DNA of 45,326 nucleotides from the NCBI GenBank assembly GCA_016199675.1, contig JACQGE010000011.1:1-45326 (forward strand). The letters run 5' to 3'. Positions 70 to 41,116 of the stretch are shown piece after piece. The position numbers and the translations under genes were made by a program. A model generated the notes under the pieces. It was not told where the DNA came from. It saw nothing but the letters and a program-made list of their open reading frames with translations, and did not search any database. The first letter of the stretch is position 1, and the number at the start of each line of letters is the position of its first letter. Source of the DNA: Acidobacteriota bacterium (GTDB taxonomy: Bacteria; Acidobacteriota; Terriglobia; 2-12-FULL-54-10).

Positions 70-1108
70 TTTCTCCGTTTTGGCCGCTTGGAAGATTAGA
101 TCAAAGGGCTTTCTGTAATTGGGATAAAGACTTGTGCTGTTTATGGCGCAGTTCGAAAGCACAATTTTGAGCAATTTGCCCTGTTCGACGGGATTCTGTC
201 TAAGATAAAGAAAATGGGCCTTGTTCGCGAGTTCTAAAATCCTGTTGGCTGTCAGGATTCGATCCGGTCTCGCATCCTGCAAACCGTTCAAAGCCAATAA
301 GACCTGCTGCTCTTCCTGTTGCCACTCATTGGCTTTCCTCTGCCAGAAATCCTCCTGGATTTTGCCGTCCAGTTTGTCCAGGTAGGCTCGGTCCATATGA
401 GAACGAATCCCAGCCAATCGCCTTTGCAGCCGGTCCCGTTCTTGCCGTCTCCAAGATTCCGAGCGGTTCTGATCTTCCCGGATAGCTCTTTGCAGCGATT
501 CGAGAACAGATCCGGGATATAAATGTCCTTCAAGAGCTGGGCCAACCGAAGCCCCATATCGGCTTCCCGAAAACGAGGGAGCGCACATTTTCCACGATAC
601 CCACCGTATCGGTAATACACGTATTTTCCCTTCTTCCGCTCTGCCGTTACCGTGCAGTTGTCATAGGCGCATTGCAGCAAGCCAGCGAACGCAAATTCAT
701 GCTTTCGATACCTGGAGCGGTTGTGCCCTTGGAACACCTCCTGCACGGATGTAAACAGATCGCTCGTGATTAGTGGCTTGTGCGTGCCCTGGTAGGTTTT
801 TTCCCGCCCAGACAAACAGGCCGCAATAAAAAGGGTTTTCAGCAATTTCTCCAAATAGCTCTTGGGGATTTTACGGCCCGTCTCCCGATAGAGAGCCTCG
901 CAGACTTGCCAGCGAATATTTCTCTGTGGCATACAATTCAAATAAGCGCTGGGGGATTAGCGAACAATAGATGAAAACCGTGGACTAACTTTTCTTGAGA
1001 TTTCGATTCCTTGCTCAGAATCAATCCATCTTTTACTAAATGAATTTCCACTCCCAAATCTTCCAATATTAAAGAGTCCCGGAAATTTCGATACAGCCGG
1101 TCCGAGAG
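70..1108 (-). pseudogene. Decayed large serine recombinase
   Basis: This is a remnant of a resolvase/invertase-type serine recombinase in at least three pieces. Near 1108-950 the minus strand reads LSDRLYRNFRD, then EIHLVKDG and LSKES, the conserved segment after the catalytic domain. A stop follows at about 938-940, and the middle of the gene appears deleted. The piece at 941-530 carries the recombinase and zinc-ribbon region: GTHKPLI, FAFAGLLQC and KGKYVYYRY, with YRGKC near the end. A frameshift at about 505-530 moves the C-terminal coiled-coil segment to another frame (RLQRRLAGIRSHMDRAYLDK, then LDGKI), which continues past base 75 into the tRNA antisense. The N-terminal catalytic serine domain is missing, so the protein cannot be active. 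Recognition of the family is secure; exact indel positions are approximate. Confidence 0.85.
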
Positions 1109-2861: not shown

Positions 2862-4804
2862 TCAGAACTCGAACTTGAGTGCCAACTGGATCTGCCGCGA
2901 GGGACTAACTGTTCTCGTGATACGTCCTGGATTGGCGGTAAGCAGTCCGGTGGTGTCGAAAACGCTTGTGCCAGGCCCGCCGAAGATCGGGTGATTCGCC
3001 AAATTGAAAACCTCTGCCCGGAATTGCAGATTCTTCCCTTCGCCAACCGGAGCCGTCTTGAACACCGAAAAGTCGAACTTGGCGAGCCCCGGTCCACTCA
3101 AGGTGTTCTTCCCCACATTCCCGAAATAGCCTGCTGGCACCACCGTAAACTGGCTTTCATCAAACCAATGATCCAGCTCTCCGATCACTGGGTTGATATT
3201 TCCTCCTGGTTTCAGATTGGGCCGCAAAGCGCAACGGCAGTATTGGGTGGTCGAGTAACCGGGTCCACTGATATCTGACGGAAAGCCGGATCGCTTGGTG
3301 AACGATCCGTTGACTTGCCAACCACCCAAAAACGCATTCGGAACCCGGCCCATGTTCGTCCCGAACATATGGCCCTGTCCCACGGGGAGTTCGTAGGTGA
3401 AGTTCATATTGAAGTTTTGGGAGACGTCCTGGTCCGCCCGCCTCTATCGAAATGGTTGTCGTCCCAAAGGTTACTCACCTGAAAAGCATTGCCGCCCTCC
3501 CCGCCAGTGACGCCCAGTCCCGCTGCTTGGCTGATGTTTTTCGACCAGGTATGGGAAGCGCTAAACTCAAGCCCCTTAGAGAACCGCTTTTGAATCCGCA
3601 ATTGCAGAGCGTTATACCAACTATTCCCTATATTAGCGAAGGTTCGAGTATCATTCAAGGCTGGGTTGATGGAGGGCGCGCCTCTTTGCGTAAACGGTAC
3701 TCCGTTGGCATCGATGCTCAAGGCAGGTTGAACGTGATTGACTACTGAACCCAGATTAACGCCTCGGGTCCCGATATAGCTTGCCCTGGCAACCCAGTTT
3801 TCCCCAAACTGCCGCTCGATTCCAAAGTTCCACTGCATTGCATAGGGGTACTTGTAATCATAGTTGATGATTGTGGGTGAATAGATACCCTTGCTAGGAT
3901 CTGTCCCAGCTAAGGGGTTCGGCCAAGTCTTGAGGTCCCTGAGTTGCACCCGGTTCGCCCAAGGCGGATGGAAGACAGCCACCGAGAACTGGTAAAACAA
4001 GGGATCCTCTTTGAATAACCCAAAACCACCCCTGACGGAGGTCCTCGTGTCCGGGCTGTAAGCAAAGCCAAACCGTGGCATAAAGCCTCCTAAAATATCT
4101 CGGATCTGGAACAGCGGCTCCTTCCCCAGTTGCTCGTAGTTGCTGTCCCGCAGAATATCCATCAGGTTAGCCGTCTTCCCGTTGACCTCTACTGGAGGAG
4201 TGATTTTTCCCCAGCGCACGCCAAGGTTCAGGGTCAGATTCGGAAGCAACTCAATATTGTCCTGGACATACCAAGCTGTTAAAGTCTGCCGATATCCTCT
4301 GTAGGGATCCGCCAGCGCATATCCATTAGCAGCCGTAAGGGCGTGAGTAGCGATCAGGCTGCTGATCCCACGACAGTTAGCGGCCCCGGTGCAGTAACCC
4401 GGCTGGCCTGCCGTCAGAAAATTCTTTAAGGGGGAGAACCAGTCGGCCTGCCCGTGTGTCCAGGTCGTACGCAACATATTCTCCTGATATCGCCCGATGT
4501 CCACGCCCAAATCCAGGGAGTGGCGGCCTTTCGTAATGCTAACAGAATCGAGATAACTAAATGTGTTAGTAACGAATTTTAGGGGCTCGGGCCATCTCAG
4601 CCCCCACGCCACTAATTCCAGGAATTCCAAAACCGCCGCCCCAAGGCACTCCAGGAATGATTGTAAACTGCGGCGCCAGCCCCGGAAACTGATCTGCATT
4701 GGTGCGCTTGGTCGCTTCTCCGTCAATGCACTGACACTCATTGGAGTTGTTACGGGTAAAGGCCCTGTCAAGCTTTTTGGAAATGTGTAATAGCTTACTC
4801 ACAT
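2862..4804 (-). pseudogene. Decapitated, frameshifted Oar-like TonB-dependent receptor
   Basis: This is the C-terminal half of a receptor closely resembling receptor F at 42879. The minus strand shows NECQCIDGE, then a barrel segment (PLKFVTNTFSYLDSVSITKG), and it ends RQIQLALKFEF with the C-terminal Phe typical of outer-membrane barrels. Three lesions are visible. First, the regulatory domain, plug and early barrel are gone: sequence matching an internal barrel position (about 4755) is joined almost directly to a leader and ATG at 4804, which is followed at once by a stop. Second, there is a frameshift with a small deletion at about 4590-4620. Third, one base is lost at about 3436-3442, breaking FDRG-RADQDV. 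It occupies the receptor slot of module 1, between the DUF1552 gene and the ankyrin gene, so that module probably relies on another receptor. Confidence 0.85.
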
Positions 4805-9913: not shown

Positions 9914-12900
9914 ATGAAAGGGCGACGGATTTTGGTGCAAAGTCTGGTGTGTGTAATGTTTTTGGGAATTATCACTCTGGCGCAAGTGACGACGGGAACG
10001 ATTTCTGGCACCGTGCGTGATTCGACTGGAGCCGTAATTCCTGGTGCAACTGTCACACTTAGAAACTTGGACACCGGCTTGAGCCGGACTTCAATTACGG
10101 ATGCGACGGGGCGCTATCGAGCACCGGAGCTTCCTCTGGGGAACTACGAAGTAAGGGCAGAAGCGACGGGGTTCCAGACGGTTGTCCGGAGCGGGATCGA
10201 AATGACTGTGGGCCGGCAGGCGGTGGTAGATTTCGCGTTGCAGGTGGGCGCAGTAACCGAGATGATTACGGTAACAGGCGAGGCCCCTTTAATCGAAACG
10301 ACGAATGCAACGGTAGCATCACTGGTCAGCGAAAAAACGATACGGGACATCCCGCTTAACGGACGCAACTTCGCAGATCTCGCTGCCCTTCAGCCAGGCG
10401 TGGTTTCCGACCTTAACGTTGCCGTTGGCCCGTACACGGGGGGAGCACGAATGGTTGTGAATGGCGCCCGGCCTCAGCAAAGTCTCTATTTGCTGGATGG
10501 GATTGAGGTGGCCTATTTGTACTCCAACACGCCCCCGGCCAGTGTGATTGGGACAACCTTGGGAGTCGACACTATTCAGGAATTCAGTCTTCTGCAGTCT
10601 AACTACGGAGCACAGTACGGACGAGCAATCGGCGGCATTGTCAACGCAGTAACCCGATCCGGTACCAATATCCTGCACGGTAGTGCATTTGAGTTCCTAC
10701 GGAATAGCGCGTTGGACGCAAAGAATTTTTTCGACCTGCCAGGTAGACCGATTCCCCCCTTTAAGCAAAACCAGTTTGGCGCTACTGCTGGTGGGCCGAT
10801 TGTTAGGGACAAATTGTTTTTCTTCGGTTCCTATGAGGGGTTTCGGCAAAGGTTGGGGACGAGCGACGTCGGTACAATGCTAAGTCCCGAAACGCGAGTT
10901 GGGCAAATCACGGGTTGCCCGCCGGGAATGAGGACTTGCTCGCCATCCCAAAGGATCATAACCCGGACAGTAACAGTGAACCCCGACATTGCGGTTCTGT
11001 TACGGCTCCTTCCGCCAGCCGATGGAGGTGAATTTCATCAGGCTGGCGATTACCGCGCGCAAGGGAGTACAGGAGTTCATTGGCACGCGGACGCGAGTGG
11101 CAGGAGAGAATTACTATATGGGACGGGTGGATCTCAATCTTTCCAGTAACGACAATATTTTTGGACGTGTTGTCGTTGACGGCAGCGATAGCGCCCTTCC
11201 TGACACCCAATTTTTCCCGGACGGGAGCGGAAGACATGTGACCACGGCAGCCAAGGGAAGCTATACCTTTGCCCTGCTAGCTTGGACACGGATACTTTCG
11301 CCCTCGCTGCTGAATACGGCCCGGATTGGCTATACTCGCAACAACAACTATCAATGTGCGTGCCTTCCAGGCACTACCGGGGGATTTGGTATCGAGAACC
11401 TTGACATCTGGCTAAATCGGGATAAGCTACCGCCTATCCCATCTCAGTTCTCGATTATTCCTGGAGTGCCGTTCGGCGGCACGCTTGGCATTCCAGGGGT
11501 TTCACTTCCGGGCGGACACAATGGGCCTGGCGCTTCTGTAACCGGGGGATCGCTAAATGATCCGCTTCGATTGATTGACAATACGTTTACTTACGATGAT
11601 TCCATCCAACTTAGCAAAGGTAGCCATTCGGTAGTGATTGGCGGGGATATCCGGCGGTATCAGGAAAATGCGATTCAGGGCATCTGGGCCAGCGGGAGCA
11701 TCTCCTGGAATACAATCCAGAACTTCTTGACAGCTGGCACCTGCGGTTCTGGTTGTTCGGGGTTTCCTGGCATTAACGTAATCACCACAACGGGCGTATC
11801 GAGTCCTCCAGATATCTATCGTGGGTACAGGCAAACCTATGGATCCTGGTATGTGCAGGATGATTTTCGAATGAAATCGAACTTAACATTGAACTTCGGG
11901 ATTCGCTGGGAGAAACTGACCGGACCCATGGAAGTCAATGGTAAAGCTGCAACTTTTAAGGATGTTGTCAAGGACGAAGATTGGACACAGTTGGGAGATA
12001 AACCGCTCTTCGATTCGCCTTCGGGTCTTTTGAAAGGGTTTACTCCCCGGTTTGGATTCGCTTACAGCTTAGATGAGAAGACTTCGATCCGGGGAGGCGT
12101 CGGGTTCTTCCAGGAGATGCCTCTTCAGTATGCCTGGAGCTTGACACCATTCTATCCTCCTTATTCAGATCGGGTGAATGTTCGCAATGCAACGAAATGG
12201 CCGAACCCGCTCGTCGGATTAGATCCGAGATCACCTGCTATTTTGAGCACGCGCCAGCCCATCCCGGTGGATCCGAATCTGAAGTACCCTTATGCCATCC
12301 AGTACAACCTGGGTGTGGAGCGGCAGATTGCGGAAAATTGGGTGACCAAAGTTTCGTTCTTGGGTACCCGAGGCGTCAGCCTGCTAATGATCGATAATCC
12401 CATCCAACCCATGCCGATACTCGATGCAAATGGGGTGCGGTTTGTACCCAGAAATGCTCCGTCAATCAACCCAAAGCTGGACTCCACACGGTTCTACACG
12501 AATATCGGAGATAGCCGTTATGGTGCGCTGCAACTGCGGTTGGAACGGCGGTTCAGCAACGGTTTGCAGTTTTCTGGGTCGTATACGTGGGGCATCAATG
12601 TGGGAGTCGGCGCACTTGGTTTGGATGGTGGACAAACGCCCCGCGGAAGCGGGGGCTTCCAAGTGGGTGATGCGTGGAGTTACAAGACGTATGACAAGGG
12701 ACGCGTCCAGCAAGACGTGCGACAGAATTTCAATTTCAATTACAACTACGAATTGCCGGTGGGGATTGGAAAGAAGTTTGGAAGCAATATGAGTGGGGTT
12801 GCAGACGCCATTCTGGGGGGATGGCAGATCAATGGAGTAATTTCCGCGAGAACAGGTCTGCCGGTAGATATTACCGGTGGCGGTTACAGCCCCACCAGTT

Positions 12901-13283
12901 TTTGCAGAACTTGCGCAATCCGTCCCAACCTGAAGCCGGGAGCGAGCAACAGCCCTGTTCTGGGTGATCCAAGCCTGTATTTTGACCCCAGCGGGTTTGA
13001 GGTTGTGCCGGCAGGCTACTTTGGAAACCTTGGGCGCAATACGTTAGAGGGTCCTAAACAGGTGAACATGGATTTCTCGTTCTTTAAAAGCTTTTCGTTT
13101 GGCGAGAGCAAACGTTTGCAATTTCGTTCCGAGATTTTCAACGTTCTAAATCATCCGAATTTTACTGCTCCAGCCTCTACAGTTTTCAACACGGACGGTA
13201 CCCAGAGTCCCACAGTAGGTCGGATAACTTCAACAACCAACAAGTCTCGACAGATTCAGTTTGGGTTGAAGTTCGAGTTTTAG
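9914..13283 (+). pseudogene. Receptor A: Oar-like TonB-dependent receptor with a frameshift
   Basis: The gene has a good ribosome site (AAGAAGGGAG before the ATG). It encodes a signal peptide, a carboxypeptidase-regulatory-like domain (GTISGTVRDSTGAVIPGATV), a plug with IPLNGRNF and YLLDGIEV, and a barrel ending RQIQFGLKFEF. The first frame ends at 11149 and the second begins before 11060. They join smoothly (QAGDYRAQG / VQEFIGTRTRVAG) if one base is removed at about 11061-11070. Without the indel the product would be about 1,120 residues, the usual size. It carries the paired cysteines CPPGMRTC, QCACLPG and CRTC shared with receptors E and F. The single defect could be a real recent mutation, a programmed shift or an assembly error. 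An outer-membrane role is inferred from the family. Confidence 0.85.
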
Positions 13284-33753: not shown

Positions 33754-36700
33754 TTAGAACTCGAACTTCAGCGCCAACTGAACCAACCGTGGAGATCCCA
33801 AAGTCTGGTCAATAATCCCCACAGTTGGACTCACGGTACCGGCGTTCGTGAATACGGTGGAGCCGGGTCCAGCGAAGTTCGGGTGATTTGGCAGATTGAA
33901 GAACTCCGCCCGGAACTGCAGGTTCTTGCCCTCTCTCACTGGAAATACCTTGAATATCGAGAAGTCCACTTTTGTTTGGCCGGGCCCGGACATTGTATTT
34001 CTGCCCAGGTTGCCAAAATACCCCTGCGGGACTTGCTCGAACTGCGTCTCATCAAACCAATGATTAATATCGCCCGTCACCGGGTTGTTGTTGCCTCCGG
34101 GTTTCAGGTTGGGCCTTAAGGAGCAAGAGCGGCAGAAATTGTTAATGTTGTAGCCCGCCCCGCCAATTGTAACTGGCAATCCTGAGCGAGCGGAGACGAT
34201 CCCGTTAATTTGCCAGCCACCGAAAATCAGATTCGCAGTGTTTCCCATATTGCCCCCGAAAAACCGGCCTTGGCCTATAGGGAGTTCATAACTATAGTTA
34301 AAAACAAAGTTGTTCCGGACATCCTGATCCAGCAGGCTTCTATCATATTCCTTGTAGTTCCATAGATTGCCCGAGGTGAATCCGCTTCCAAAAGTGGAGG
34401 AGGAACCAGCCCCGTTCAGTCCAAGCACTCCGGTGCCGACGTTTTTTGACCAGGTGTGGGACACACTAAACTCTAACCCATGACTGAACCGCTTCTGCAA
34501 CCGCAACTGGAGCGCGTTGTAAAGACTGTCTCCCAGATTCGCATAGGTGCGCGTGGAATCCAGGGCCGGATTGATGGATGGCTGGAGGCGAGGGGTGAAC
34601 ATCCTTCCCTGCGCATCGAGTTGGACCGCAGGCTGGATCTGGTCAATAACGCCTACCAAGCTTACACCGCGGGTTCCGATATAGGTTGAGCTTACCACCC
34701 AGCTTGCTCCCAATTGTCTCTGGATTCCGAAGTTCCACTGCATACCGTACGGGTACTTGAGATCCGTATTGATATTCTGAGGCTGCGGAGTGCCGGTGGA
34801 AGTGTTTACTTTGGGTATTGGGTCGGGCCAAATCTTGAGGTTGCGCAGTAAGATCCGGTCCGCCCAGGGTGGATAATAAATCGCCCCTTGATACAGGTAT
34901 TCCAGCGGAATTTCTTTGAAGAGTCCGTACCCGCCTCGGACCGTAGTTGCTGCATCCGGACTATAGGCTAAGCCGAAGCGAGGTCCCAAACCTCCCAAAA
35001 TATCCCGGCTTGAGAACAATGGATCCTTCCCCACCAGCGTCCATCCGGTATCCCGCAGTGTGTCTTTCACCACAGCCGCTTTCCCATTGACTTCTACTGG
35101 CCCTGTAACTCTCTCCCAGCGAACGCCAAGGTTAAGGCTTAGGTTCGGCAGCAACTGGAAGTCGTCCTGAATGTACCAAGCGCCGTAGGTCTGCCGCCAT
35201 CCCCGGTAAACATCTGCTGGGCCTGTTACCGCGACCGTCGTGAGGGTATAGCCATTGCATCCGGTGCAGGCGCCAACGGTTAAAAAGTTCGCCATTGGAG
35301 CAGCAAAAGAAGTCTGCCCGTGAGACCGGACCGAGCGGATTGTGTTTTGTTGATAGCGGCGGACATCCACGCCAATATCAAACGAATGCAACCCTTTCGT
35401 GAGGCGCACGGAATCAGCATAACTGAACGTATTGTCCACCCACATCAGCGGGTCGTCCAGGTCGGCGCCCAAGACCGTGCCGCCGGGACGGCCGTTGTGG
35501 CCGCCGGGAACGCTGACTCCAGGAACTCCCCAAGGCCCGCCCCAGTACACCCGGGGTATGACCGCCAACTGTGGCGGAAGTCCCGGATAGTCATCGGCAT
35601 TGACGCGGCTGTTTTCCTCCCCATCAATACACATGCACTGGTTGTTGTTGTTGCGGGTAAATCCAGCCCGCGCTATATTGAGGACGCTCGGAGAGATTAT
35701 TCTCGTCCACTCCAGCGCCAGGTAGCTATAAGAGCCCCAGTCGTTCGTCCAGGTGTGAAGATTCTTGGATACATCCAAAAACTGGGCGTCGGGAACCTCC
35801 TTGCTGCTGCGGTCCATCACGAACCGCCCGAAAATGTTGTCATTGTCGCTGAGCCGTTGGTCAACCCGGAACATGTAATAGTTCTCCCGCCCGCGCTCCC
35901 TCACGCTTTCCTTGAATTCCTGAAGACCATCGTTCAAATACAGCCCATTTCCCCTCGGAATGAGGTCGATGATCGGACGAATGTCTGGTCTTACGTCCAC
36001 CGTTCGTGTAATAACACTTTGCTCCTTGGTGCAGGTTTGCATTCCAGTCGGGCACCCCGTGATCTGCCCATTCCGCGCCTCGTCGCTCATGACGCGGCCG
36101 TTATCGGTAGTTCCTCGAATCTGCCGCAAGCCTTCATAGGAGGCAAAGAAGAAGGTGTTGTCTTTCTTAATCGGCCCGCCTAGCGTGCCGCCGAACTGGT
36201 TCCGCTTATATGGCGGTATTGGTTCATCCGGTATGTCGAAGAAGTTCTTCGCGTCCAGATTCTCGTTTCTCAAAAACTCAAACGCGCTCCCGTGAAGTTC
36301 ATTGGTTCCAGAACGGGTTACGGCATTCATGATGCCGCCAATGGCGCGGCCATACTGGGAGCCATAGTTATTCGAAAGGACCGTGAATTCCCGGATGGTA
36401 TCCACGCCCAGGGTTTGGTTCATCACGCTTACTGGGGCCACGTTATTGGACGGGCTGACCATCTCTACCCCGTCCAGCAGGTAAAGGCTTTGCGTCGCGC
36501 GTGCTCCGTTCAACACGACTCTGCCGCCGCCCTGAAAGACTCCCGACGGAATCCCCAGGTCTGTAACGGCTCCAGGCTGAATCGCCGTTAAATCCGTAAA
36601 ACTACGCCCGTTCAGCGGCAGTTCTCTCATTTCCCTTTCACTGACTAGATTAGACACGGTAGCATTCGTCGTCTCCAATAACGGTGCTTCCCCCATCACC

Positions 36701-37056
36701 GTAATCCTTTCCGCTACCGCTCCCACTTGCAGCGCGAAATCCACCACGGCTTGTCGTCCCACCGTCAACTCAATTCCGCTGCGCACCACGCTTTGGAACC
36801 CAGCCGCTTCTACCATAACTTCATGCATGCCTAAACCCAATTGCTGCGCTGTGTAGCGCCCCTGAGCATTCGTATTCACGGTGCGGGTGATCCCTGTCTC
36901 TACGTTCCGCACGGTAATGGTTGCCCCCGGGATTACTGCCCCGGAACTGTCAGACACAGCGCCAGAGATTTGCCCGCCTGTGACCTGGGCCAGGGCAATT
37001 GTGCTCACAAACATCGCACACACTGCTGCTTGCATCAAAATCCACTTTCCTCTCAT
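33754..37056 (-). CDS. Receptor E: Oar-like TonB-dependent receptor
   Basis: A protein of 1,100 residues. The ATG at 37056 is preceded by AAGGAGGG and six bases; the open frame extends to 37284, but that part is leader. Signal peptide MRGKWILMQAAVCAMFVSTI, regulatory-like domain (GQISGAVSDSSGAVIPGATI), plug (LPLNGRSFTDLTAIQPGAV, YLLDGVEM), and barrel ending RLVQLALKFEF. It shares the paired-cysteine signature of receptors A and F: CPTGMQTC, NQCMCIDGE, GACTGC and CRSC. It is divergent from the module 3 cytochrome gene across a 301-bp region with a palindrome. It should sit in the outer membrane; the ligand is unknown. Confidence 0.92.
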   Translation of the reverse strand: MRGKWILMQAAVCAMFVSTIALAQVTGGQISGAVSDSSGAVIPGATITVRNVETGITRTVNTNAQGRYTAQQLGLGMHEVMVEAAGFQSVVRSGIELTVGRQAVVDFALQVGAVAERITVMGEAPLLETTNATVSNLVSEREMRELPLNGRSFTDLTAIQPGAVTDLGIPSGVFQGGGRVVLNGARATQSLYLLDGVEMVSPSNNVAPVSVMNQTLGVDTIREFTVLSNNYGSQYGRAIGGIMNAVTRSGTNELHGSAFEFLRNENLDAKNFFDIPDEPIPPYKRNQFGGTLGGPIKKDNTFFFASYEGLRQIRGTTDNGRVMSDEARNGQITGCPTGMQTCTKEQSVITRTVDVRPDIRPIIDLIPRGNGLYLNDGLQEFKESVRERGRENYYMFRVDQRLSDNDNIFGRFVMDRSSKEVPDAQFLDVSKNLHTWTNDWGSYSYLALEWTRIISPSVLNIARAGFTRNNNNQCMCIDGEENSRVNADDYPGLPPQLAVIPRVYWGGPWGVPGVSVPGGHNGRPGGTVLGADLDDPLMWVDNTFSYADSVRLTKGLHSFDIGVDVRRYQQNTIRSVRSHGQTSFAAPMANFLTVGACTGCNGYTLTTVAVTGPADVYRGWRQTYGAWYIQDDFQLLPNLSLNLGVRWERVTGPVEVNGKAAVVKDTLRDTGWTLVGKDPLFSSRDILGGLGPRFGLAYSPDAATTVRGGYGLFKEIPLEYLYQGAIYYPPWADRILLRNLKIWPDPIPKVNTSTGTPQPQNINTDLKYPYGMQWNFGIQRQLGASWVVSSTYIGTRGVSLVGVIDQIQPAVQLDAQGRMFTPRLQPSINPALDSTRTYANLGDSLYNALQLRLQKRFSHGLEFSVSHTWSKNVGTGVLGLNGAGSSSTFGSGFTSGNLWNYKEYDRSLLDQDVRNNFVFNYSYELPIGQGRFFGGNMGNTANLIFGGWQINGIVSARSGLPVTIGGAGYNINNFCRSCSLRPNLKPGGNNNPVTGDINHWFDETQFEQVPQGYFGNLGRNTMSGPGQTKVDFSIFKVFPVREGKNLQFRAEFFNLPNHPNFAGPGSTVFTNAGTVSPTVGIIDQTLGSPRLVQLALKFEF

Positions 37057-37101
37057 GGGAAACCCTCCTTTACAGGTTGCAATACCGCTGACCAATGGCA
37101 A

Positions 37102-37125
37102 GTCTTTAGCGAGATAGCTAAAGAC
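37102..37125 (-). promoter_or_regulatory. Leader hairpin upstream of receptor E
   Basis: GTCTTTAGC and GCTAAAGAC form a perfect 9-bp stem with a 6-nt loop, about 45 bases before the receptor start. Its distance from the ribosome site resembles that of the leader RNAs at 4802 and 8787, but the loop lacks the C-run. The leader has no other clear feature apart from the ribosome site. Confidence 0.4.
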
Positions 37126-37275
37126 CTCCCCGTCCGGCAACAAACCCTCGATCCATCCGTGAGACAATCGTGATCTGCGGACGCAGACGCGAAACGGCTG
37201 AAGTTCGACTTCGCAATGTTTACCCAGCGTCCGTCTCCACACCCCGTTGGAAGGGAGCCTACGCTCGCCAGTACT

Positions 37276-37305
37276 GGATGTCAAGGAAAAATTTCCTTGA
37301 CATCC
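37276..37305. promoter_or_regulatory. Perfect 30-bp palindrome overlapping the module 3 promoter
   Basis: GGATGTCAAGGAAA, two central bases AA, then TTTCCTTGACATCC form an exact palindrome. Its right arm contains the -35 box TTGACA of the cytochrome promoter, and by symmetry its left arm presents a TTGACA toward receptor E. This fits a dimeric regulator site controlling both divergent transcripts. Confidence 0.6.
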
Positions 37306-37324
37306 TCCACCTGATAGCTATACT
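37297..37324 (+). promoter_or_regulatory. Sigma70-type promoter of the module 3 cytochrome gene
   Basis: TTGACA (37297-37302), a 16-bp spacer and TATACT (37319-37324), about 33 bases before the start codon. The -35 is inside the palindrome, so a bound protein would block RNA polymerase. Confidence 0.65.
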
Positions 37325-37357
37325 ATTTTTAAACTCATCGGAGGCGGATTTTTCATA

Positions 37358-39721
37358 ATGTCAAAACTAATAATGGCGTGGATTGGAATCGGGTTGGCCA
37401 GCACAGCACATCTTCTTCAGGCAGCTAGCCAGGAAGTCCCTAACCCTGCACCCGGCCCTGCCGCGCAATATAGTACGGTTCTCAGCCGCTACTGCTTTAC
37501 CTGCCATAACGAAAGACTCAAAACAGCCGGCTTGATGCTGGACAAGATGGATATCGAGAATATTCCTGCAAGCGCGGAGGTATGGGAAAAGGTCATCCGC
37601 AAACTTCGCGTCCGGGGAATGCCTCCCGCCGGTATGCCGCGGCCGGACCTAGCCACCTATGATTCCTTTGCCACGTATTTGGAGACAGAACTTGACAACG
37701 CGGCCGCAGCAAAACCCAATCCCGGAAGAACGGCTGCCATACATCGGCTCAATCGCGCCGAATACACCAACGCGATCCGCGATTTGCTGGCATTGGAAAT
37801 ATACAACGAATCGCTTCTGCCTCCCGATGATTCGAACTATGGTTTTGACAACATCGGAGAGATTCTAACCGTATCCTCCGCGCTGCTGGAAAGGTTTATG
37901 TCAGCGGCAGAGATAATCGGTCGTCTGGCGATTGGGGATCCTACAATCCGTCCAGCACTCGCGACATACGAGATTCCCAGCAATTTCCAGCAACAGGACC
38001 GTGCCAGCGAAGATCTACCTTTCGGGTCGCGTGGCGGGCTTGCCGTTCGCCATTATTTTCCATTGGATGGCTCTTATCTCATTAAAATTGGTCTCAAGAA
38101 AGTCGATGATGGGTTATATGCGGGGCAAGTTGTCGGTTTCGAAGATCCCAAACAACTCGATCTACGTTTGGATGGCGAAAGAGTGCAAGTGTTCACTGTT
38201 GGTGGCAAGTCCGAAACAACCGATGCGGATTTGCAAATCCGCATTCCGTTAAAAGCGGGTTCCCATTTGGTTGGAGTCACTTTCCTGAAAGATTCCAAGA
38301 GGCTGGAAGGCCCAGCTCGTGAGGCAAGAGACCAGTCTGGTGTAAGTGAACTCACAATCGGCGGTCCCTATGACGGGAGGAGACCAATAAATACACCGAG
38401 CCGCAGCAAGATTTTTTTATGCAATCCAAAGAACAGCCAGGAGGAAGAACCCTGCGCCAAAAAGATACTTTCGACGTTGGCACGTCGCGCGTACCGCCGT
38501 CCGGTCAGCGATGCGGACATCCAACCTCTGCTCGATCTTTATAGGACTGGCTTGGCCAAGGGCGGTTTTGAATCGGGAATCAAATTGGCTTTGGAAGGAA
38601 TACTGGACAGTCCCTCCTTCCTCTTCCGAGTAGAACGCGATCCACAGAACGTGGCGCCTGATACCCCCTATCCCATCAGTGATCTCGAACTGGCTTCCCG
38701 ACTATCGTTTTTCCTTTGGAGCAGCATACCTGACGATGAACTGTTGACCCTAGCCGAACGCGGCGAACTCAAAAATCCTGCGGTGCTGGAGCAACAAGTG
38801 AAGCGCATGCTTGCCGACTCACGTTCGAAGGCTCTTGTTGACAATTTTGCGGGGCAGTGGCTAACCCTTCGCAGCCTGAGCTCGAAGTCTCCAGATCGGT
38901 CAGTGTTTCCCAATTTCGACGATAACCTTCGTGAAGCGCTCCTACAGGAGACAAAACTATTCTTCGATAGCATCGTGCGCGAGAATCGCAGCGTGGTGGA
39001 TTTGCTGAATGCAGATTATACGTTCCTCAACGAACGTCTGGCCCGCCATTATGGCATTCCGAATGTTTATGGCAGCCAGTTTCGGCGGGTAAAGGTGATC
39101 GATGAGAATCGGAGGGGGCTGCTCGGCAATGCCAGTGTTCTAATGGCGACCTCCTATAATACCAGGACCTCACCTGTTCTTCGCGGCAAATGGGTGTTGG
39201 AAAATATCCTGGGTACCCCGCCCCCGCCACCACCACCAGACGTTCCATCTCTAAAAGACGACAAGGACGCCAAGGCACTGACAATGCGTCAGCGGATGGA
39301 GCAGCATCGCGCAAATCCAGCGTGTGCAGCTTGCCACAAATTAATGGATCCCCTGGGCTTTGCGTTAGAAAACTTCGATGCCGTCGGCCAGTTCCGAACC
39401 ACAACCGGTGCGGATAGAACGCCGATAGATGTCTCAGGCGCGCTTCCCGATGGCACTCCTTTGCAGGGTGCGGCCGGGCTTCGGGAGAATCTGCTGAAAA
39501 ATCCTGAACAATTTGTGGATACCTTTGCAAAGAAACTACTGACTTATGCCCTAGGCCGAGGAGCCGCCTATTACGACGGTCCGGCTATCCGCAGAATTCT
39601 GCAGGAGTCTGCGCCTGACTACCGTTTTTCTTCCATAGTTTTGGGCATTATCAAGAGCGTGCCATTTCAGATGAGGGAATCACAATCACAAGTGCCAGCA
39701 GCCGTTGCGGGCGTTCGCTAA
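37358..39721 (+). CDS. Secreted multi-domain cytochrome-like protein, module 3
   Basis: A protein of 787 residues, with GGAGGCGG about ten bases before the ATG. Signal peptide, then heme motif CFTCH (46-50). The family domains follow in the usual order: DUF1587 (HRLNRAEYTNAIRDLL), a beta-rich segment (LPFGSRGGLAVRHYFPLDGS), DUF1595 (ARRAYRRPVSDAD) and DUF1592 (ELASRLSFFLWSSIPDDELL). A poly-Pro linker (GTPPPPPPPDVPSL) precedes DUF1588 with heme motif CAACH (656-660), and DUF1585 ends the protein. Only this copy is on the plus strand. It is followed by its DUF1552 partner after 51 bp. The runs of Pro probably need EF-P for translation. The electron-transfer role is inferred from the heme motifs. 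Confidence 0.92.
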   Translation: MSKLIMAWIGIGLASTAHLLQAASQEVPNPAPGPAAQYSTVLSRYCFTCHNERLKTAGLMLDKMDIENIPASAEVWEKVIRKLRVRGMPPAGMPRPDLATYDSFATYLETELDNAAAAKPNPGRTAAIHRLNRAEYTNAIRDLLALEIYNESLLPPDDSNYGFDNIGEILTVSSALLERFMSAAEIIGRLAIGDPTIRPALATYEIPSNFQQQDRASEDLPFGSRGGLAVRHYFPLDGSYLIKIGLKKVDDGLYAGQVVGFEDPKQLDLRLDGERVQVFTVGGKSETTDADLQIRIPLKAGSHLVGVTFLKDSKRLEGPAREARDQSGVSELTIGGPYDGRRPINTPSRSKIFLCNPKNSQEEEPCAKKILSTLARRAYRRPVSDADIQPLLDLYRTGLAKGGFESGIKLALEGILDSPSFLFRVERDPQNVAPDTPYPISDLELASRLSFFLWSSIPDDELLTLAERGELKNPAVLEQQVKRMLADSRSKALVDNFAGQWLTLRSLSSKSPDRSVFPNFDDNLREALLQETKLFFDSIVRENRSVVDLLNADYTFLNERLARHYGIPNVYGSQFRRVKVIDENRRGLLGNASVLMATSYNTRTSPVLRGKWVLENILGTPPPPPPPDVPSLKDDKDAKALTMRQRMEQHRANPACAACHKLMDPLGFALENFDAVGQFRTTTGADRTPIDVSGALPDGTPLQGAAGLRENLLKNPEQFVDTFAKKLLTYALGRGAAYYDGPAIRRILQESAPDYRFSSIVLGIIKSVPFQMRESQSQVPAAVAGVR

Positions 39722-39772: not shown

Positions 39773-41116
39773 ATGATGATCTTCAAGAAGACTCTTCCCC
39801 GGCGCACGTTCTTGAAAGGCGTTGGCGCAACGCTGGCTTTGCCGCTGCTGGACGGAATGATCCCGGCATTCGCAAGTACGCCCACCGGCTCGAAAGCCGC
39901 AACGCGGCTAGCGTTTGTTTATATTCCGAATGGGGCCATCCAAGATAAATGGACGCCGGCGACCGTGGGAGCCGGCTTCAAGATGACTCCAATTTTAGAA
40001 CCGCTGGCTGCATTCCAGGATCAGCTCCTTGTACTGAGCGGACTCTCGTCGGTTCAGGCCATCGGCTTGGCGGGTGAGAGCGAGGGGCCGCATCCGCGTG
40101 CCTGCGTCACATACATGACGGGTGTTCATGCGGGGACAAGGAATATAAGAACTGGAGAGGCTCAGGTTAGCGCAGGAATTTCTGTGGACCAGGTAGCGGC
40201 CAAAGAACTTGGGAAGTACACTGAACTTGGATCACTCGAGATTGGAATAGAGTCCATTGGGATTGGCGCATGCGATGGAAGTTGTGCCTATACGGACACT
40301 ATTTGCTGGCGCGATGCAACCACACCTCTCCCGATGCAGAACCAGCCGCGCGCAATATTCGAGCGCCTGTTCGGCCCTAGCGACAGCACGGATCCGGTAG
40401 AGCGGCTTGCTCGAGTCCGGAAAAACCGCAGCATTTTGGACTTTGTGTCTGAGGAAGCCCGCCGGCTCATGATGGGCCTAGGTTCGGGCGACCGCCTCAA
40501 GGTGAACCAGTATCTCGAATCCGTTCGAGACGCTGAGCGACGTATTCAGAAGGCTGAGGAGCAGTCCTCTCGAGAATTGCCGACTGTGCAGCGGCCCGCC
40601 GGTATCCCGGATAAATTTACCGAACATATCAAACTGATGTTTGACCTGATGACCCTTGCCTTTCAAACAGACTTGACCCGCATCTCCAGCCTTCAGATCG
40701 GCCATGAAATGAGCAATGCGACCTATCCCGAGATTGGAATTACCGATCCACATCACCCGTTCACGCATCACCAGGGCGACCCCTACAAGATTGACAAAGC
40801 CATCCAGGTTAACATTCTACATACTACGATGTTTGCTTATTTCCTCGAGAAGATGCGATCGACACAGGATGGCGATGGAACCCTTTTAGACCATTCGTTG
40901 ATAGTTTACGGCGGCGGTCTCGGAGATGGCAATCTGCATATTCCCAAAAACCTGCCGATTTTGCTCGTAGGTGGAGGATCCGGTCAGGTTAAGGGGGGAC
41001 GCCACATCCAATATTCAAAAGACACGCCATTGGCCAATCTTCAGTTAGCCCTGCTGCATAAGGTAGGAGTCCAGGCTGATAGGTTCGGCGATAGCACTGG
41101 CGATCTGGAGCTGTAG
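39773..41116 (+). CDS. Tat-exported DUF1552 (HXXSHH family) protein, module 3
   Basis: A protein of 447 residues; GGAGG lies nine bases before the ATG. The twin-arginine signal is LPRRTFLKGVGATLALPLLD. The family motif reads HPFTHH, with Thr for Ser as in module 1, followed by QGDPYKIDK. CDGSC (near 163) is shared with the module 1 copy (CDGGC) and differs from the CERNWNC of module 2. The C-terminus has VYGGGLGDGNLHIPKNLPIL and FGDSTGDLEL. It is the last gene of the plus-strand operon and is followed by a strong bidirectional terminator. Function unknown. Confidence 0.92.
   Translation: MMIFKKTLPRRTFLKGVGATLALPLLDGMIPAFASTPTGSKAATRLAFVYIPNGAIQDKWTPATVGAGFKMTPILEPLAAFQDQLLVLSGLSSVQAIGLAGESEGPHPRACVTYMTGVHAGTRNIRTGEAQVSAGISVDQVAAKELGKYTELGSLEIGIESIGIGACDGSCAYTDTICWRDATTPLPMQNQPRAIFERLFGPSDSTDPVERLARVRKNRSILDFVSEEARRLMMGLGSGDRLKVNQYLESVRDAERRIQKAEEQSSRELPTVQRPAGIPDKFTEHIKLMFDLMTLAFQTDLTRISSLQIGHEMSNATYPEIGITDPHHPFTHHQGDPYKIDKAIQVNILHTTMFAYFLEKMRSTQDGDGTLLDHSLIVYGGGLGDGNLHIPKNLPILLVGGGSGQVKGGRHIQYSKDTPLANLQLALLHKVGVQADRFGDSTGDLEL

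Follow-up and report, generated by a model that had tools for sequence, protein, structure and literature searches.

A near-perfect palindrome as candidate back-to-back -35 regions of divergent receptor and cytochrome genes in an Acidobacteriota genome

The window, which is the whole stretch of 45,326 nucleotides analysed here, belongs to a 2.5-Mb draft genome of 198 contigs (86.6% complete), and the nearest relatives of this genome in the collections searched are Acidobacteria MAGs. On the minus strand, positions 33754-37056 encode a TonB-dependent-receptor-like outer membrane protein (CarboxypepD_reg and OMP_b-brl_4). The likely start is the ATG at 37056, and a Shine-Dalgarno-like AAAGGAGGG is found upstream of it at 37071-37063. 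On the plus strand, the gene at 37358-39721, preceded by GGAGG at 37340-37344, encodes a cytochrome-type protein with the structure PSCyt1/PSD3/PSD5/PSD4/PSCyt3/PSD2 (DUF1587/1595/1592/1588/1585), here called the PSD gene. The co-oriented gene at 39773-41116 encodes a DUF1552 (HXXSHH) protein and is presumably part of the same operon. The gene calls on both sides agree with the first-pass annotation, which had placed the site between divergent receptor and cytochrome genes. The set of receptor, PSD, DUF1552 and ankyrin genes recurs in relatives as well as within the genome. The cassette copies on contigs C78, C121 and C41 have their receptor and PSD genes in the same direction, and one copy from another genome (G001:C187) has a divergent receptor farther away, at 1.6 kb. 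The close head-to-head arrangement is peculiar to the window copy among the copies examined.

The region between the two genes contains the inverted repeat GGATGTCAAGGAAA-AA-TTTCCTTGACATCC at 37276-37305, with two perfect 14-nt arms (37276-37289 and 37292-37305) around a central AA (37290-37291). Its earlier description as an exact 30-bp palindrome needs a correction: the inverted repeat exists, but the central AA is not self-complementary and 28 of the 30 positions are paired. Counting inverted repeats with arms of at least 12 nt and a spacer of at most 12 nt gave only three in the window, of which one other has 15-nt arms and resembles a two-way terminator. Forty dinucleotide shuffles of the window produced no repeat with arms of at least 14 nt and one with arms of 13, and the repeat at 37276-37305 is thus unexpected by chance within the window. 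A count over 404 kb of the genome gave just seven repeats of this type (arms of at least 12 nt, short spacer), and some of these resemble terminators. As RNA the repeat would fold well on both strands, and it was rejected as an intrinsic terminator on account of a stem without a run of T. It would also stay untranscribed from the promoters that it carries. Comparison of the window region with Rfam gave no match to a known structured RNA.

The right arm contains the sequence TTGACA (37297-37302, plus strand) at a 16-nt spacing from TATACT (37319-37324), as the first-pass annotation had stated. The two hexamers match the consensus at 11 of 12 positions and the predicted start is at about 37331. 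The score of 14.0 is the highest in the region; the matrix of hexamer frequencies is an approximate one of E. coli type. The same element recurs within the genome: TTGAC is found 56 to 62 nt upstream of the ATG in five of six PSD paralogues, the window gene (-61) included. The other four genes with TTGAC have no palindrome, which among the six paralogues is confined to the window gene. The right -35 is thus a commonplace, recurring promoter element, and it is the left arm that sets the site apart.

The left arm provides a TTGACA on the minus strand (37284-37279) with TAGGCT (37261-37256) at a 17-nt spacing, and the earlier proposal of a -35 for the opposite strand holds in that this is the best-scoring minus-strand site upstream of the receptor gene. 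It is positioned at -228 from the receptor ATG, with a predicted start at about 37249. With the same approximate matrix the site scored 10.3 and the second-best one upstream of the receptor gene 5.9; the 95% levels were 9.5 in shuffled sequence and 8.7 in random stretches of the window. The -10 is weak, with only three of six consensus matches, and given the TTGACA an equally good -10 is expected by chance with P = 0.057. The putative promoters of receptor paralogues in the same genome were found at -202 (AAATTCCTTGACA...TAGGAT), -226 (TTGACG...TAGCAT) and -251 (TTGACA...TAAAAT). These positions indicate that a predicted -35 some 200-250 nt upstream of the receptor gene, followed by a long leader, is a recurring layout in this genome. 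Two other receptor paralogues have their best promoters nearer the gene, at -101 and -116, and no recognisable promoter was found for the remaining receptor paralogues examined in the genome.

The presumed receptor leaders are long (about 200 nt) at loci L203 and L212 and in the window (37057-37250, minus strand). Between L203 and L212 the leaders are homologous, with 75-80% identity across two stretches. The window leader is not homologous to these two and has a stem-loop at 37097-37130 (minus strand) with no T run.

Together, the promoter scoring and the promoter positions of the paralogues of both genes back the earlier claim that the symmetric arms supply each strand with a -35 box. On its own strand each of the two promoter-like sites ranks first, and both are positioned as in paralogues of the same genome. 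The reading that we favour, with a probability of about two in three, is that the palindrome forms the back-to-back -35 regions of two mutually exclusive divergent promoters of sigma-70 type, with starts predicted from the sequence. The strong promoter TTGACA-N16-TATACT would drive the cytochrome (PSD)-DUF1552 operon on the right; the weaker TTGACA-N17-TAGGCT would drive the receptor gene on the left, with a leader of about 190 nt in between. A gap of 12 bp lies between the outward-facing -35 hexamers, and relative to each predicted start the palindrome centre is at about -41. Two polymerases are unlikely to sit there together, because the footprint of each would cover the -35 of the other promoter, and the two promoters would probably compete. 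The additional symmetry may also let one dimeric repressor close both promoters. A more far-reaching version is tentative and, in our judgement, doubtful: the site would be a two-way switch built on a symmetric -35 and not on a symmetric -10, where RNA polymerase lands on the palindrome in either orientation, and the choice of orientation, or one repressor bound there, balances the outer membrane receptor against the cytochrome-type operon.

The symmetry of the site exceeds what two -35 boxes explain, so that a symmetric repressor operator is also conceivable. Beyond the -35 boxes the arms agree at eight non-core positions, a match with p of about 3e-5 for two promoters of the genome that are independent of each other, and this identity outside the -35 cores supports a putative added symmetric function. 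A symmetric protein would be expected to repress and not to activate, because the site overlies good -35s. The symmetric activator offered as an option in the first-pass annotation is accordingly less likely: perfect -35s need none, and a protein at about -41 over the -35 would obstruct sigma region 4. The repressor operator for both sides that had been proposed alongside it is favoured by the symmetry beyond the -35 boxes, but the motif is present in a single copy and absent in relatives, and the window ORFs include no evident regulator gene. As the palindrome is unique and unconserved, an operator function under selection is no more than possible. A search of the genome for further regulon sites gave no second copy of the site with up to three mismatches. 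The palindrome was likewise absent from six genomes of the family, and the intergenic region has no homology to other cassette loci. In the class, 13 of 399 genomes had a match at spacing 8 (the own genome, which is the sole exact match, included), about the same as with the reversed-pattern control, and a spacing control with a spacer of 6 likewise gave 13 of 399. Conservation in relatives, on which the first-pass annotation had let its proposal depend, is thus absent, though this weighs little since the collections searched contain nothing closely orthologous to this locus. Within the family the PSD gene has its best homologue at only 66% identity, which allows no more than a loose comparison of the palindrome.

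Three other explanations of the palindrome were considered. It is possible, but unlikely, that the palindrome is a dedicated operator at which a dimeric repressor blocks the cytochrome promoter only, the left TTGACA being a by-product of symmetry and the receptor being driven from elsewhere. The eight positions of symmetry past the -35, the weak left -10 and a centre near -41 that overlies a good -35, which is the classical repressor geometry, agree with this, but the minus strand upstream of the receptor has no other good promoter, the receptor paralogues have a similar promoter distance, and the single genome copy and the lack of an evident regulator among the nearby window ORFs also argue against it. 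Still less probable is a neutral accident in which template switching mirrored the -35 region into the upstream flank of an ordinary promoter, leaving a symmetry without function. This would fit the paralogues that retain the -35 without the left arm, as well as the missing palindrome in the six family genomes and the lack of enrichment in the class; the left arm, however, sits at the promoter position of the receptor paralogues with a usable -10 behind it.

A footprint or terminal repeat of a transposon of the IS1595 family is very improbable. The genome has four IS1595 transposases, and TGTCAA...TTGACA pairs were found on contigs C1, C67 and C78, but these pairs consist of the terminal repeat of the element itself (for example CGTGATTATCCTATTGACACCCGT), whose inner end carries TTGACA, next to a host -35 box, and the elements have 8-bp target duplications (TAGAATTT, AAAGATGG and GACTTTTT). 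No such terminal repeat is present in the window and no duplication surrounds 37276-37305, and an IS1595 terminal repeat or excision scar was rejected for the site, which has no GATTATCC..TTGACA-like end.

Shared operators between divergent, overlapping promoters are known from E. coli bioO, which lies between bioA and bioBFCD and is bound by BirA, and from the tetR/tetA operators. As in these systems, one sequence of two-fold symmetry extends over promoter elements belonging to two divergent genes. The window site differs in that the arms hold the -35s of outward-facing, back-to-back promoters, and in that it has no known cognate regulator and lies outside any visible regulon. In the bidirectional promoters described by Warman, Grainger and colleagues a symmetric -10 is shared and the starts are usually 18 bp apart (7-25 bp) (PMC12825309, PMC10268837). 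The likeness to these promoters is that the symmetry of the DNA permits binding of RNA polymerase either way, with mutual exclusion expected (PMC12825309, PMC10268837); here, in contrast, the -35s are symmetric, each promoter has its own -10 and about 82 bp lie between the predicted starts. With this distance and no shared -10 the site is not a bidirectional promoter in the sense of Warman et al. (PMC10268837), and by their definition it would be a pair of separate divergent promoters. It is an ordinary divergent promoter or operator-like region, new only as an instance. As such it offers a concrete, testable example of divergent promoters whose -35 regions make one palindrome. The adjoining genes belong to the expanded, functionally obscure receptor/PSCyt-PSD/DUF1552/ankyrin cassettes of Acidobacteria, and should the palindrome prove to be an operator, this would give a first handle on the regulation of the receptor/PSD cassettes.

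The IS1595-type elements are located in the same genome (G000) on C1 (9047-10135), C67 (15511-17490) and C78 (9886-11806), at loci L191, L188 and L157, respectively. The element on C1 has no transposase domain match. The terminal repeats have an inward-facing TTGACA of their own, and the target duplications end at most a few bases upstream of a host (C/G)CTTGACA -35-like box; insertion at these three sites is possibly promoter-directed. Another short palindrome, TTGACAAACCCA-TT-TGGGTTTGTCAA, was found at L157:9840-9865, between a receptor gene and, across the IS1595 insertion, a dehydrogenase-like gene.

The window holds several receptor/PSCyt-PSD/DUF1552/ankyrin cassettes, and a search of the 2.5-Mb genome gave 41 OMP_b-brl_4 matches, fragments included. 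Two further receptor genes in the window, at 9914-13283 and 2862-4771, are each broken into overlapping ORFs in different frames, which suggests frameshifts, caused by decay or by assembly errors. The ORF at 288-941 (minus strand) was judged by eye to be like a C-terminal fragment of a serine recombinase.
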